DNA of 45,591 nucleotides. Source: a virus. Positions 25,986 through 31,129 of this stretch are shown one piece after another (the first letter of the stretch is position 1; every line of letters starts with the position of its first letter). The stretch covers positions 1 through 45,591 of the IMG/VR virus record IMGVR_UViG_3300034283_002243; one strand, written 5' to 3'. Both the position numbers and the translations under genes were made by a program. The notes beneath the pieces were generated by a model. That model ran no database searches and was not told the origin of the DNA. It saw only the letters and a list, made by a program, of their open reading frames with translations.

Positions 25986-26165
25986 TTAATCTCCTACTTT
26001 ATGTATACGAATACCTGGACTATCATGATGCTCAAAGAATTCCCACTCTAAAGTGTCTCCTTCTGCCCACTGCATCTCATCTAGTAACTCATCTGGAAAA
26101 ACTAAGAAATATTCTCCAGATTTTTCATCATATTGAACTTCTGTAGTATAAGAAAATGTTGACAT
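25986..26165 (-). CDS. AbrB/MazE-like small protein (59 aa)
   Basis: Fifty-nine residues with the pattern YFLVFPDELLDEMQWAEGDT, then LEWEFFEHHDSPGIRIHKV. The order strand, P.ELL...W..GD.L.W, strand is that of the swapped-hairpin AbrB/MazE/SpoVT DNA-binding fold, which is common in phages as small regulators. It ends 57 bp before the start of the 959-residue tail gene and is the first gene of the late block. It could regulate transcription or simply be a small conserved phage protein; DNA binding is inferred from the fold-like pattern only. Confidence 0.55.
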   Translation of the reverse strand: MSTFSYTTEVQYDEKSGEYFLVFPDELLDEMQWAEGDTLEWEFFEHHDSPGIRIHKVGD

Positions 26166-26618
26166 ATGTGTATGAATATTTACAGTATATAGTAAAAAAA
26201 TTTTTTTTACATTTTTTCAGAATTTTTTGAATTTTTCGGTGAAATTTTTTCCGAGAATTTTCAAAATTTCTCTGATTGTGATGTAAATGTATGAAAATTC
26301 CTCGGAATGAGTCGTTTTTGTGCTTATTTTAGTGATTTTTTGAGTCATTTTGAGGAATTTTGTGGGCAAATGGGGGAATTTGGGGAAAACTTGGAGGGAC
26401 TTGGAGGGACTTGGAGATTTTTCGGAAAATTTTTTTGGGTGATTGAGTATCTTTCGGTCGTCTTCAAAGGTTTATAGCTTAGGAGGGACCCAAACTTTTT
26501 GTACGGGGCGGGGCGGCCAACCCATAAGGGGCGCTAATGACTGCCCTCTGCTCCCATAAGGACTGCTGATGCATCAGAAGGGCTGATGAATGGGGGCCGA
26601 AGCCCCCTGAATCTCTCA
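26166..26618. other. Non-coding stretch between late tail block and GC-rich island
   Basis: This 453-bp stretch holds no convincing gene. From 26190 to 26290 it is poly-A/poly-T rich. From about 26340 to 26416 it becomes strongly purine-biased with runs of G, including a tandem 10-bp repeat. From 26500 it becomes GC-rich and contains the palindrome CTGATGCATCAG at about 26566. The composition changes sharply from AT-rich to GC-rich across it. Confidence 0.6.
26362..26416 (+). repeat. G-rich tract with tandem ACTTGGAGGG repeat
   Basis: The plus strand reads GTGGGCAAATGGGGGAATTT then GGGG and a 10-bp unit ACTTGGAGGG twice plus a partial copy (26389-26416). At least four G runs of three or more with 5-10 nt loops make a possible G-quadruplex. 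Confidence 0.5.
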
Positions 26619-26622
26619 TCAG
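26583..26622 (-). terminator. GC hairpin at the end of the 55-aa gene
   Basis: GGGGGC, TTCG, GCCCCC on the minus strand (26592-26607), with an outer stem between CTGATGA (26583-26589) and TCATCAG (26616-26622) that overlaps the stop codon. There is no T run, so it may act by mRNA 3'-end protection or as a weak terminator. Confidence 0.5.
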
Positions 26623-26786
26623 ACATCCATCTCCAGAAGCTTGCCCAGAAGGGCTTCCACATCCTGGCGGGATTCAAACAACTGCCAGGGCTGGCTGCGA
26701 CGGTCGGCGGCAATCAGGCCAGACATCACCAAACGGCGAGCGATGCGAATCTCGGCGTTGGTCAGGGTCAGGGTCTTGGTGGGCAT
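26619..26786 (-). CDS. Small GC-rich hypothetical protein (55 aa)
   Basis: Starts MPTKTLTLTNAEIRIARRLV and ends LGKLLEMDV. The start at 26786 has a good ribosome site (AAAGGA eight bases upstream) and follows a TAGGAT motif at the usual spacing; the frame is open further upstream but that part overlaps the preceding gene. The peptide looks like a short helical protein with an LTNAEIRIARRLVMSGLI helix. It lies in the GC-rich island and has GC-biased codons unlike the tail genes. No family was recognised. Confidence 0.6.
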   Translation of the reverse strand: MPTKTLTLTNAEIRIARRLVMSGLIAADRRSQPWQLFESRQDVEALLGKLLEMDV

Positions 26787-26811
26787 TGGTCGGTTCCTTT
26801 GAACTGAGAGA

Positions 26812-26847
26812 ATCCTAGCATGGATGGGGGAGCCCCGAAGGGCTCCC
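26812..26847 (-). promoter_or_regulatory. TAGGAT -10-like motif with upstream GC hairpin
   Basis: On the minus strand a perfect stem GGGAGCCC, loop TTCG, GGGCTCCC (26847-26828) is followed by TAGGAT (26817-26812) and then the leader and start of the 55-residue gene at 26786. The same hairpin-then-TAGGAT arrangement precedes two other genes of the island. It may end the upstream transcript and start the next. Confidence 0.45.
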
Positions 26848-26859
26848 GTTAACATTTGT

Positions 26860-27171
26860 TCACACAGGCGTGTTGCGGTCCTGGCTCCAGTTACGCAGCC
26901 TGCGGTTGCTGGCCTTGCTGTAAACTCGGTCGCCAATGGTACGGTCCCCCACGGTGATGGCGCTGCGGCCTGCAGCATCAGCGGCGGCCTGCAGGGCTTG
27001 GCGACCCAGCTTGCGCTCAGAGGGAAGGGCGACCTCAGAGGTGGCCAGGTCAAACAGCCACTGAGCACGGTGGCGGCCCACGATGGTGGGTTCCTTGATG
27101 GTTCGCTTGGCGAGGGCCACGGCAATGATGGTGGGAACAGCGGTGCGGGTCAGACGGTCGGAGCGGGTCAT
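26860..27171 (-). CDS. GC-rich hypothetical protein (103 aa)
   Basis: A basic, alanine- and arginine-rich protein starting MTRSDRLTRTAVPTIIAVAL and ending RRLRNWSQDRNTPV. The start lies after a TATAAT-type promoter and a leader hairpin. The frame uses GC-rich codons and overlaps no better gene. The middle segment EVALPSERKLGRQALQAAAD looks helical. No catalytic motif or family was recognised; DNA binding is possible from its charge but unproven. Confidence 0.55.
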   Translation of the reverse strand: MTRSDRLTRTAVPTIIAVALAKRTIKEPTIVGRHRAQWLFDLATSEVALPSERKLGRQALQAAADAAGRSAITVGDRTIGDRVYSKASNRRLRNWSQDRNTPV

Positions 27172-27186
27172 GGTCTCAGGTAGGTT

Positions 27187-27244
27187 GTGGGGGCTTCTCT
27201 CGCCCCCGTGTTCATATTATAGGGTATCGGGGGGAGGCTGGCGA
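27187..27244 (-). promoter_or_regulatory. Promoter TCGCCA-17-TATAAT with leader hairpin
   Basis: TATAAT at 27221-27216 has a weak -35 (TCGCCA, 27244-27239) with a 17-bp spacer. A stem GGGGGC/GCCCCC with loop GAGAGAA lies in the leader between the promoter and the ATG at 27171. Confidence 0.55.
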
Positions 27245-27285
27245 TGCCCCAGCCCCGACTTGTAACAAACTGAAATAATTATATT

Positions 27286-27954
27286 TTAGGCGACAATCTC
27301 ATTGACTGTTTTTTTAGCATTACCGTGAGCAGGGAAAGCAATAATGAAGTCCCTGTCTGCTTTAGCACAAAGGCCACAAGTTGCACAAGTTACATTCTCA
27401 TGAATAGTTGCAGGACAAGTGATAACTTTACGACCAGATTCTGTTTTATAGAATCGTTCGGTTTTATCAGACTTGACAACAGCCACTGCAGGAATGTTGT
27501 GCTCAGTCATGATAGCATCAGCCACCTCAACATCCTCAGTGGATGCATTGATTGTGAAGCCTTTGTTGTTAGCTTCCTTGATGACTTGCAGGTTGTGGTT
27601 GTTAAGAACGTGGTGGGTATAAGTGTAACCTTTGCGGCCTTTGTTTGCATCAGCCAGTGCAGATACCATGGGAGCATTAATGTCACCCAGGATATGTGGC
27701 AGGTCGCCAGATACATTGTGCCGCCAGAGTTGGCCACGCTGAAGCTTGCGAATTGCGTTCACAAACTCCTGGAAATTAACACCCCTTTCCTGTTCAGTTA
27801 CCTTGCGCCAGTGAATAGCTTGGGGGCCAGACTTGGCGTAGCAACCTTTATCGTAAAAGGGGCAAGTGCTGGGGCAGGTCTCACGGCTGGAGGTGCTGGT
27901 AGGGATGGGGCCAGTCTTAGCGTTGCTGGAGACCTGGGTGAGAGCGAAGTTCAT
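27286..27954 (-). CDS. Cys-rich phage protein, DUF7227-like (222 aa)
   Basis: The N-terminus SSNAKTGPIPTSTSSRETCP followed by STCPFYDKGCYA, GPQAIHW, and the C-terminal cluster CPATIHENVTCATCGLCAKA fit a phage protein family I know as DUF7227. Seven cysteines form two clusters (C27, C31, C38 and C180, C190, C193, C196), which points to a metal or Fe-S site. The middle segment FTINASTEDVEVADAIM looks like part of an alpha/beta barrel. Its biochemical role is not established. It has its own leader behind a TAGGAT motif and lies in the GC-rich island, although its own base composition is closer to average. Confidence 0.65.
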   Translation of the reverse strand: MNFALTQVSSNAKTGPIPTSTSSRETCPSTCPFYDKGCYAKSGPQAIHWRKVTEQERGVNFQEFVNAIRKLQRGQLWRHNVSGDLPHILGDINAPMVSALADANKGRKGYTYTHHVLNNHNLQVIKEANNKGFTINASTEDVEVADAIMTEHNIPAVAVVKSDKTERFYKTESGRKVITCPATIHENVTCATCGLCAKADRDFIIAFPAHGNAKKTVNEIVA

Positions 27955-27976
27955 GACTTGGGTTTGAACTGAGGTA

Positions 27977-28009
27977 ATCCTAGCAGGTGGTGGGGGCTGG
28001 AGAGCCCCC
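27977..28009 (-). promoter_or_regulatory. TAGGAT -10-like motif with upstream GC hairpin
   Basis: The stem GGGGGCT, loop CTCC, AGCCCCC (28009-27992) lies where a -35 would be, followed by TAGGAT (27982-27977) and the ATG at 27954. It parallels the elements at 26812-26847 and 28284-28319. Confidence 0.45.
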
Positions 28010-28020
28010 TGTTACAAAGC

Positions 28021-28260
28021 TTAACCTTTGGCCAGCCAGTCGGAGACTGACATAATCCAGCCCTCGCTGTGCCAGGTGCGGAATCGGTCAGTCTTAAACT
28101 GTTCCCACTGTTCGGCAGTCAGCTGGTGGCCTTCCACCATAACGGGCTCGGTGCTGGGCTTGGGCTTAGCCTGTCCCAGGTTAGCACGGAACCGCTCGGC
28201 GGCAGCATCAGCCTGGCTCAGCTCAGGGCTCAGGCCAGGGAGGTGCTCGGTGTTGAACAT
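28021..28260 (-). CDS. GC-rich hypothetical protein (79 aa)
   Basis: Seventy-nine residues, MFNTEHLPGLSPELSQADAA at the start and TWHSEGWIMSVSDWLAKG at the end. The central part KPKPSTEPVMVEGHQLTAEQ is proline- and charge-rich, so it looks like two short helical parts joined by a linker. The start context ACCGACCA-ATG is the same as for the 55-residue gene, which supports it. GC-rich codons set it apart from the tail genes. No family was recognised. Confidence 0.55.
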   Translation of the reverse strand: MFNTEHLPGLSPELSQADAAAERFRANLGQAKPKPSTEPVMVEGHQLTAEQWEQFKTDRFRTWHSEGWIMSVSDWLAKG

Positions 28261-28283
28261 TGGTCGGTTGCGACTGCCCCAGA

Positions 28284-28319
28284 ATCCTACAACATGGGGG
28301 CTGCCACCTGGCCAGCCCT
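28284..28319 (-). promoter_or_regulatory. TAGGAT -10-like motif with upstream GC inverted repeat
   Basis: TAGGAT at 28289-28284 precedes the 79-residue gene (ATG at 28260). Upstream lies GGGCTGG...CAGCCC, an inverted repeat in the -35 area, as in two other intergenic gaps of the island. Confidence 0.4.
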
Positions 28320-28336
28320 GTTACAATTTGAAATAT

Positions 28337-28528
28337 TTACATCTCCAGCTGCCAATCTTGGTCCTTTGTAACATTAACCCAGAAGAAGTTCCTGCCATTC
28401 ATACTACGCAGGAAGACTTTATCACCTTTGGATTGTTCAACGATGCAATGTTCACAAGATTCCATTAGATTGGCGAATCTGTTTTTAGCTTTCTTTGAGA
28501 TAGGCTTGACAGAAACAATTGTTTCCAT
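28337..28528 (-). CDS. Conserved small phage protein (63 aa)
   Basis: Reads METIVSVKPISKKAKNRFAN, then LMESCEHCIVEQSKGDKVFL and NGRNFFWVNVTKDQDWQLEM. The combination KAKNR.ANLM...CIVEQ..GDK.FL.S.NG.NFFWV is one I have seen in small proteins of many tailed phages of cyanobacteria and enterobacteria. The fold is probably a small beta-sheet protein. It shows no catalytic motif and its function is unknown. Confidence 0.6.
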   Translation of the reverse strand: METIVSVKPISKKAKNRFANLMESCEHCIVEQSKGDKVFLRSMNGRNFFWVNVTKDQDWQLEM

Positions 28529-29980: not shown

Positions 29981-30184
29981 TCATTCATAAGTGTTACTAA
30001 TCTGATTGATAGTCTTTTCTAATGTATTCAGTTCTTGTTCATTTAGTCCAAGAACATATTCTTCAATAATATCTTCTATAAGTTTATAGTTATTATTATA
30101 CAATTCATTCGTGAGTGATTCAATCATCTCATCTTGTTTCATGGATTTTGTGTTAAAGTATTGAAGAATTTCTGAGTAGTTCAT
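29981..30184 (-). CDS. Acidic helical hypothetical protein (67 aa)
   Basis: Starts MNYSEILQYFNTKSMKQDEM and ends TLEKTINQISNTYE. Its ATG overlaps the stop of the 56-residue gene by ATGA. It appears all-helical with a probable coiled coil near the C-terminus (LNEQELNTLEKTINQI). No known family. Confidence 0.6.
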   Translation of the reverse strand: MNYSEILQYFNTKSMKQDEMIESLTNELYNNNYKLIEDIIEEYVLGLNEQELNTLEKTINQISNTYE

Positions 30185-30351
30185 TTCTTAATTACCAGGG
30201 CACCATACTTGTTGAGTTTACCTGCACATGGTTTGTTATCATACAGGCCAAAGTAATACTTACCAATACTAATACCAAACTGTTCATCACCTGATTTAGC
30301 CCTAGTATTAGCTCCAATGTAGAGGAATCGGGAATCAATTGAGAATTTCAT
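30181..30351 (-). CDS. Small conserved beta protein (56 aa)
   Basis: Reads MKFSIDSRFLYIGANTRAKS, then GDEQFGISIGKYYFGLYDNK and ends NKYGALVIKK. It is a short all-beta protein by pattern. A near-consensus promoter and a GTTCA hairpin leader lie just upstream, so it is the first gene of this early unit, with the 67-residue gene coupled behind it. Function unknown. Confidence 0.6.
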   Translation of the reverse strand: MKFSIDSRFLYIGANTRAKSGDEQFGISIGKYYFGLYDNKPCAGKLNKYGALVIKK

Positions 30352-30353
30352 GG

Positions 30354-30403
30354 GTTCAATGTGTGAACAGAGTCACTATAGGGGGTTTTCGGAGGGTTGT
30401 CAA
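30354..30403 (-). promoter_or_regulatory. Early promoter TTGACA-17-TATAGT with 5' hairpin
   Basis: TTGACA (30403-30398), 17-bp spacer, TATAGT (30380-30375). The predicted start near 30368 opens with GTTCA, CACAT, TGAAC (30368-30354), just before the ATG at 30351. Confidence 0.82.
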
Positions 30404-30483
30404 GAGGGTTTGAATAAGTATATCTTATATGGTTAATAATCTCTAGATATACTTAATAATTATTTGTTACCCTCCACAGAGTC

Positions 30484-30512
30484 ATTATACACATATCTGG
30501 GTGTGTTGTCAA
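30484..30512 (-). promoter_or_regulatory. Consensus promoter TTGACA-17-TATAAT
   Basis: A perfect sigma70-type promoter on the minus strand: TTGACA (30512-30507) and TATAAT (30489-30484) with 17 bp between. It fires toward the 56-residue gene through 100 bp of AT-rich leader, in tandem with the promoter at 30375-30403. It lies next to the DnaA-box cluster. Confidence 0.8.
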
Positions 30513-30550
30513 GTGTATATGGTATATGGTTAATAATTTGTAATATGGAG

Positions 30551-30584
30551 TTTTCCACAGGTTTTTCCACAGGGCTGTGGAAAA
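30551..30584 (+). other. Cluster of three DnaA-box-like sites (candidate origin core)
   Basis: TTTTCCACA occurs at 30551-30559 and 30563-30571 on the plus strand, and as its inverse TGTGGAAAA at 30576-30584. TTTTCCACA is the DnaA-box consensus described for Synechococcus PCC 7942. Two of the boxes also form a 10-bp inverted repeat with a 2-nt centre. AT-rich repeats lie on both sides. Together this looks like an origin or a host-DnaA-regulated site; T4 itself does not use DnaA. Confidence 0.6.
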
Positions 30585-30596
30585 CTATCAAAGGGG

Positions 30597-30666
30597 CTCG
30601 GAGTGATTAGGAGTGCTTATATTAGTATTCCTTATGAGTGGCCTCGGAATGATTTGGAATACTTAT
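30597..30666 (+). repeat. 24-bp direct repeats (iteron-like)
   Basis: Two 24-bp copies at 30597-30620 and 30643-30666, starting CTCGGAGTGATT and CTCGGAATGATT, match at 20 of 24 positions. Each has an internal GGA(G/A)T repeat. They lie between the DnaA-box cluster and the plus-strand promoter. Confidence 0.6.
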
Positions 30667-30687
30667 GAGTTTTTTGGGGCTGGGGGC

Positions 30688-30716
30688 TTGACAAATTTCG
30701 GAAGTCATGGTATACT
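30688..30716 (+). promoter_or_regulatory. Isolated plus-strand promoter TTGACA-17-TATACT
   Basis: TTGACA (30688-30693) and TATACT (30711-30716) are 17 bp apart on the plus strand, opposite to every gene in the window. A transcript would begin near 30723 and cross about 220 bp of non-coding DNA before becoming antisense to the gene ending at 30941. No plausible plus-strand protein follows. Confidence 0.65.
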
Positions 30717-30940
30717 GCGGGCCAAGACTGCTGCAGCCCCGTACATTTCAGATACTTTCTCTGACACCATCGGACACACACACATACAAATACAGTATAT
30801 ACTTAATAATTCTCTCTCTACACATTATATACTTAATAATTTCTCTTATTCCTTCTCTCTATACATAACACTCAACTATATTTTTTATTACATTTAATGA
30901 ATGTTAATAATTTATACTAATTTTAACATATCTTTCCGCA

Positions 30941-31129
30941 TCACATATACTTTATCATTGAATCTGCTATTTGCCAACAATATACTGATACTAATTCATC
31001 AGCATCTACTTCTGCATCTTTTGCTGCTCTCTGAAAGTTTGTTTCTAATACATTTGATGCTAACTGTGCTAATGCTATCTTAGCAAATTCAATTCTTAAT
31101 TCTTGCCTTGTTTCTTCTGTTAAATTCAT
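30941..31129 (-). CDS. Helical hypothetical protein (62 aa)
   Basis: Starts MNLTEETRQELRIEFAKIAL and ends SVYCWQIADSMIKYM. The ATG at 31129 is used rather than the TTG four codons upstream. The protein looks all-helical and amphipathic. Its downstream end faces the plus-strand promoter region. No family was recognised. Confidence 0.55.
   Translation of the reverse strand: MNLTEETRQELRIEFAKIALAQLASNVLETNFQRAAKDAEVDADELVSVYCWQIADSMIKYM

Follow-up and report, generated by a model that had tools for sequence, protein, structure and literature searches.

A candidate replication-origin module with host-type DnaA boxes in T4-like cyanophages

We identified an intergenic module in a T4-like cyanophage that brings together sigma-70 promoters, iteron-like repeats, exact cyanobacterial DnaA boxes and a very AT-rich element. 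The module is probably where T4-like Synechococcus phages start DNA copying, or part of how they do so, because the same arrangement recurs in many of these phages. Specifically, we lean towards reading it as a replication-origin-type cis element of T4-like cyanophages, in which a T4-style transcript would be combined with host DnaA. On how T4-like cyanophages begin replication, the open literature read offers only one prediction, a single theta origin in Syn9 (PMC2984593), and we found no description of DnaA boxes in T4-like cyanophages in the open-licence literature searched.

The DNA analyzed (hereafter the window, 45,591 bp) derives from a T4-like cyanophage and encodes a homologue of the baseplate wedge protein gp8. 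Its nearest annotated relative is S-CREM1, a phage of Synechococcus CB0101, and a 105-kb viral contig overlaps the window with identical sequence. Where the long structural genes give way to the small-gene region (approximately 26000-28500), the G+C content rises abruptly from about 30% to 56% and then drops to about 40%.

Organization of the gene-free module

The module occupies a gap of 589 bp (30352-30940) between two minus-strand ORFs (30351>30181 and 31129>30941). No gene is evident in the gap, in line with the gene-free stretch described in an earlier, sequence-only reading of this DNA, and scans of the window for Rfam families and tRNAs gave no matches. From left to right, the gap contains a minus-strand promoter (30403>30375), two TATAnnnTTAATAAT units, a second minus-strand promoter (30512>30484), a third unit and three DnaA boxes. 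To the right of the boxes come two 24-bp CTCGGA..CTTAT repeats and a plus-strand promoter, then an untranslated leader, a further two units and finally the AT element. The features, with the bordering ORFs, are:

30181..30351, minus strand: small early-type ORF of 56 aa, first downstream of the minus-strand promoters; no Pfam match
30375..30403, minus strand: sigma-70 promoter TTGACA-17-TATAGT, the tandem second, within a repeat spaced by 109 bp
30418..30461, plus strand: two iteron-like TATAnnnTTAATAAT copies, upstream of the boxes
30484..30512, minus strand: sigma-70 promoter TTGACA-17-TATAAT, 12/12 consensus positions, reading toward the minus-strand early genes
30515..30538, plus strand: iteron-like copy GTATATGGTATATGGTTAATAATT, immediately before box 1
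30551..30559, plus strand: DnaA box 1, TTTTCCACA, exact match
30563..30571, plus strand: DnaA box 2, TTTTCCACA, exact match, 12 bp after box 1
30576..30584, minus strand: DnaA box 3, TTTTCCACA inverted, exact match, 13 bp after box 2
30597..30620, plus strand: 24-bp repeat copy 1, CTCGGAGTGATTAGGAGTGCTTAT; similar repeats in relatives
30643..30666, plus strand: 24-bp repeat copy 2, CTCGGAATGATTTGGAATACTTAT; conserved in relatives
30688..30716, plus strand: sigma-70 promoter TTGACA-17-TATACT with TG, pointing to the iterons and the AT element; aligned in 9/9 close relatives
30717..30876, plus strand: untranslated leader GCGGGCCAAGACTGCTGCA...CAGATACTTTCTCTGACA, conserved; candidate primer or R-loop transcript
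30792..30841, plus strand: two iteron-like copies TATATACTTAATAATT, downstream of the plus-strand promoter; tandem 42-bp units in the relatives L008 and L010
30877..30898, plus strand: AT element TATATTTTTTATTACATTTAAT, candidate unwinding element; a related motif adjoins the boxes in S-PM2, S-CAM1, S-CREM1, DSL-LC03 and others
30941..31129, minus strand: small ORF of 62 aa at the right border of the gap; no Pfam match

The three TTTTCCACA sites, two direct and one inverted, are all exact and lie within 34 bp, as the sequence-only reading had described. No other exact copy occurs in the 45.6 kb of the window, for which chance predicts about 1.2; by our own Poisson estimate, the probability of three within 34 bp is of the order of 5e-7. 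Copies with one mismatch are at chance level (25 found, 25.2 expected), so the signal resides in the exactness and clustering of the boxes. Boxes 2 and 3 are part of a perfect inverted repeat with 10-bp arms separated by 2 nt, and their spacing class is also found in S-PM2 and in the close relative L005. The cluster lies 104 bp upstream of the plus-strand promoter and about 290 bp from the AT element. A relaxed DnaA-box-like site, TTATACACA (30485-30493), overlaps the -10 element of the perfect-consensus minus-strand promoter.

The repeats noted earlier from the letters are also real. The 24-bp direct repeats beside the boxes are identical at 20/24 positions by reading, and the AT-rich TTAATAAT copies were found at 30433, 30453 and 30530, with three more (30803, 30833 and 30904) outside the range of 30433-30720 originally given. 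Another repeat, GTATAT..TATATGGTTAATAAT, is present at 30418 and 30515, and within the window the longer unit TATAnnnTTAATAAT is confined to this gap. The same reading had missed the three strong sigma-70 promoters, as well as the AT element, which lies beyond the range it covered.

The plus-strand promoter has no convincing plus-strand gene ahead of it. Although A+T is more abundant in the left half of the window, nearest-neighbour energies place the weakest duplex of its 45.6 kb at the AT element: the 50-mer of lowest stability starts at 30876, and the corresponding 100-mer at 30825. The tandem minus-strand promoters are both held in a 38-nt imperfect repeat (30367-30404 and 30476-30513, 109 bp apart). 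The left copy reads GAGTCACTATAGGGGG on the plus strand and superficially resembles a T7 promoter core; on the minus strand it is the TTGACA-17-TATAGT sigma-70 promoter.

Recurrence in close relatives and other cyanophages

The close-relative set comprises nine distinct phages, including the window. Eight were anchored by the helicase gene, and the ninth, L013, was recruited through its promoter and leader pattern. The plus-strand promoter and the leader start GCCAAGAC.GCT are kept in 9/9, although in L013 this is by construction because the pattern itself found that phage; iteron-like units are likewise present in 9/9. Eight of the nine share an almost unchanged AT element, L010 having a variant, and a stretch similar to the 56-aa ORF region occurs in L005 and L007. 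Exact boxes were found in only three of the nine, at differing distances from the -35 element: -137 to -112 in the window, -125 to -112 and +210 to +223 in L005, and +302 to +337 in L010. With the promoter kept in nine phages and the boxes in three, the promoter does not depend on the boxes, which also shift in position. Their loss from most close relatives also indicates that DnaA is not universally required.

Beyond this clade, the exact tandem box pair is present in at least 120 stretches of viral contigs. Among the matches listed, 92 of 122 places are outside open frames of at least 120 codons, and many of the listed tandem pairs come after an AT element like CCTATGTTTTTTAATACATTTA. A TTGACA-like -35, usually with a spacer of 17 nt, is followed by a leader, an AT-rich stretch and then two to three boxes in S-CAM1, S-PM2, Syn1, DSL-LC03, S-CREM1, S-RIM2, S-RIM8, S-RIM12, S-ShM2 and Syn30; S-CAM1 and Syn1 have direct boxes only. 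In S-SKS1 (Llyrvirus) the order is promoter, four tandem repeats, boxes and AT-rich stretch, with the AT after the boxes rather than before them. The four repeats of S-SKS1 (about 24 bp each, TTAGAGAAGGTTTATAAGAGTA; L296, 430-515), between promoter and boxes, are iteron-like and of other sequence. The -35 is degenerate (TTGTGT) in MbCM6 and Syn9, so the promoter is weaker there; the Syn9 box cluster is at 52565-52597 of DQ149023. In S-PM2 (AJ630128) the cluster is at about 19.25 kb and in S-RIM2 (HQ317292) at about 48.1 kb. In each complete genome examined, the clusters occupy a single place or lie within about 1 kb. That promoter, AT element and boxes keep this order, and that the arrangement recurs across cyanophage genera, supports the reading as an origin.

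We also drew a motif-blind sample by gp8 homology (18 cyanophages and four other T4-like phages) and defined a cluster as at least two TTWTCCACA within 50 bp. Clusters were found in 9/18 cyanophages, compared with about 1-2% expected per genome according to our estimate from site counts. Within the sample they were restricted to Synechococcus phages (9/13, versus 0/5 Prochlorococcus phages; one-sided p ~0.015, kinship ignored), and the four non-cyanobacterial T4-like relatives had none. The sequence-only reading had proposed to look for conservation of the boxes in relatives; the boxes do recur across cyanophage genera and in half of the motif-blind cyanophages, but exact copies are missing from six of the nine closest phages.

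Of 36 non-redundant pairs of inverted neighbouring boxes, 35 are spaced by 12-13 or 22-25 bp, two spacings that differ by one helical turn. The vector strength of the box spacing is 0.89, against 0.48 for the 99.9% point of the null, for cases that are not phylogenetically independent. The sequences between the boxes are unrelated, yet the same two spacings recur, as predicted by binding on one helical face. Promoters of the form TTGACA-N17-TA are enriched near the clusters in both directions, with a random-position control inflated by loci that measure only 1-2 kb. The AT content near clusters has a median rank of 0.26 and is not extreme at every locus.

Automatic promoter anchoring mis-assigned L005, S-PM2, DSL-LC03 and ACG-2014b and missed S-CAM1, Syn30, Syn9 and MbCM6; these phages were read by eye and weigh less. 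DNA searches of annotated phages with the 1.4-kb region, or with the promoter and leader alone, returned nothing meaningful, and the recurrence surfaced only via the motif and via the protein-anchored relatives. A scan of complete genomes with a strict AT-element consensus failed, the motif being too variable for a single pattern. In S-PM2, annotations of tRNA-Leu and tRNA-Asn overlap the AT element and box array (AJ630128, 19177-19333; L162). Both annotations may be spurious, and that of tRNA-Leu, which runs across the boxes, looks doubtful.

Host DnaA and comparison with known origins

In cyanobacteria, TTTTCCACA is established as the DnaA box, and DnaA domain IV binds two tandem copies in vitro (PMC4674748); the match proposed from sequence alone agrees with this consensus. 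The exact phage 24-mer occurs between dnaA and dnaN of a filamentous Oscillatoriales genome (genes named from translations), and eight boxes directly precede dnaN in a 2.7-Mb genome whose composition resembles that of S. elongatus. Two small genomes starting at dnaN have degenerate boxes there, one with TTTTCCACA no more than 0.3 kb upstream of the gene; judging by their size and start, we take them to be picocyanobacterial, as records of these organisms begin in this way. Two small cyanobacterial genomes also contain one tandem TTTTCCACA pair each, 11 bp apart and far from dnaN (L252, 1726-1745; L254, 2060-2079). The C-terminal domain of DnaA was detected in none of 11 phage records, and the control genomes were positive. 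Host DnaA very likely binds the boxes, because they match the consensus, are helically phased, are present at a cyanobacterial oriC and belong to phages without dnaA.

Host DnaA boxes, replicon-specific iterons and an AT-rich segment are also combined in P1 oriR, R6K and pSC101. Unlike these, the module has no identified initiator gene and belongs to a lytic T4-like phage rather than a plasmid replicon. With cyanobacterial oriC, which is located at dnaA-dnaN or adjacent to dnaN, the module shares an intergenic location and a phased cluster of exact host-consensus TTTTCCACA boxes (PMC4674748), including tandem pairs 11-12 bp apart. It differs in having fewer boxes, no adjoining dnaA or dnaN, a strong promoter reading into the AT element and boxes that are not in all relatives. 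An AT-rich unwinding element is expected beside the boxes of an oriC-type origin; the AT element adjoins the boxes in many relatives and is about 290 bp away in the window. A strand-skew switch, typical of oriC-type origins, was not seen, a weak test where a genome is mostly transcribed from one strand. GC skew had been proposed as a check, and neither GC nor AT skew gives an origin signature: no GC-skew sign switch is present at the site in the window or in S-CREM1. In 6/10 genomes, a count inflated by related genomes, the detrended GC-skew maximum lies 6-11 kb from the cluster, whereas a classical bidirectional origin would be expected at the minimum.

At T4 oriF and oriG, a promoter, a transcript and a weak duplex give an R-loop that primes leading-strand synthesis, whereas oriE has an early promoter and 12-nt iterons (PMC3016281). 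The earlier statement that T4 depends on its own recombination and origin RNAs, read as implying that it uses no such repeats, needs softening in view of oriE. Like oriF and oriG, the module has a promoter upstream of an A+T-rich unwinding segment, into which it reads, and a predicted short non-coding transcript, in a T4-like phage. Unlike them, it uses sigma-70 promoters (TTGACA-N17-TATACT ahead of the AT element) and TTTTCCACA; in T4 the middle promoters depend on MotA, and host DnaA boxes have not been described at these origins. Cyanomyoviruses lack motA (PMC2984593). The module resembles oriE in its early-type promoter and in direct repeats that are also found in related phages, but the T4 iterons are evenly spaced, are not DnaA boxes and have an unproven role, whereas the module has both iteron-like TTAATAATT units and DnaA boxes.

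We propose that host RNA polymerase would start at about 30723, from the plus-strand sigma-70 promoter, and transcribe the short untranslated leader into the very weak AT-rich duplex. By forming an R-loop, the transcript may keep this duplex open and serve as primer for the leading strand, as in T4 oriF/oriG. Host DnaA on the phased TTTTCCACA boxes might bend and open the DNA, or help deliver the helicase. In the window, where the boxes are 104 bp upstream of the promoter and not after the AT element as usual, DnaA would have to work from afar or jointly with the TTAATAATT iterons. A more tentative suggestion is that a hybrid origin, in which transcript and host DnaA open the AT element, could be common to T4-like Synechococcus phages, with some lineages, including the relatives of the window, replacing the boxes by their own TTAATAATT iterons and so passing from host- to phage-controlled initiation. 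An origin using host DnaA, as first suggested from the window, is favoured by the conserved order and recurrence, but not by the skew or by most of the closest relatives, which have no exact boxes.

Should these phages use host DnaA, their replication could be coupled to the cell-cycle state of the host, and Synechococcus phages could depend on DnaA to a different degree than Prochlorococcus phages. The module recurs in cultured phages (S-PM2 on WH7803, S-CAM1, S-RIM2 and Syn9), and the boxes named here are direct targets for experiments.

Other explanations for the box cluster

Alternatively, DnaA bound to the boxes may activate or repress the adjacent early promoters, an option already raised in the sequence-only reading. 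In the window, the boxes start 39 bp upstream of the -35 of the consensus promoter (30512) and lie between divergent promoters, and the enrichment of TTGACA-N17-TA promoters near clusters in both directions would fit such control. However, consensus-grade promoters hardly need an activator, and in most phages the boxes are downstream of the conserved promoter. We regard this reading as unlikely and weaker than the origin reading because the boxes vary in position relative to the promoters, and phages without boxes still have the promoters. Clusters of DnaA boxes outside oriC are also known from titration loci of the datA type. Multicopy phage genomes with a small cluster of this kind might soak up DnaA and stop new rounds of host replication, with no phage origin involved. 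A titrator needs no fixed place relative to the promoter or AT element, which would suit the shifts among the window, L005 and L010, but it has little need of helical phasing. As a rule there are only two to three boxes, and unlike datA they are embedded in one intergenic module with a promoter and an AT element, which makes titration quite improbable.

The perfect inverted repeat of boxes 2 and 3 might instead point to operators of a phage protein, to a hairpin in RNA or to a terminator, with a fortuitous resemblance to the DnaA box. A terminator was ruled out, since a T run precedes the stem and an A run follows it, with no 3' T-tract. S-CAM1 and Syn1 have only direct boxes, Rfam gave no match, and the sequence is that of the host DnaA box and of the 24-mer at host oriC, so we give little credence to this explanation. 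Least credible is a mobile palindromic (REP-like) element or chance. Box positions do differ among relatives, but the boxes are confined to one place or about 1 kb per genome rather than dispersed, and three exact 9-mers in 34 bp are far beyond chance; this reading is largely refuted by the genome-wide counts. Tandem TTTTCCACAGG boxes outside ORFs are also present in viral contigs of about 60% G+C (L033, L083, L118 and others), which are presumably phages of other hosts.
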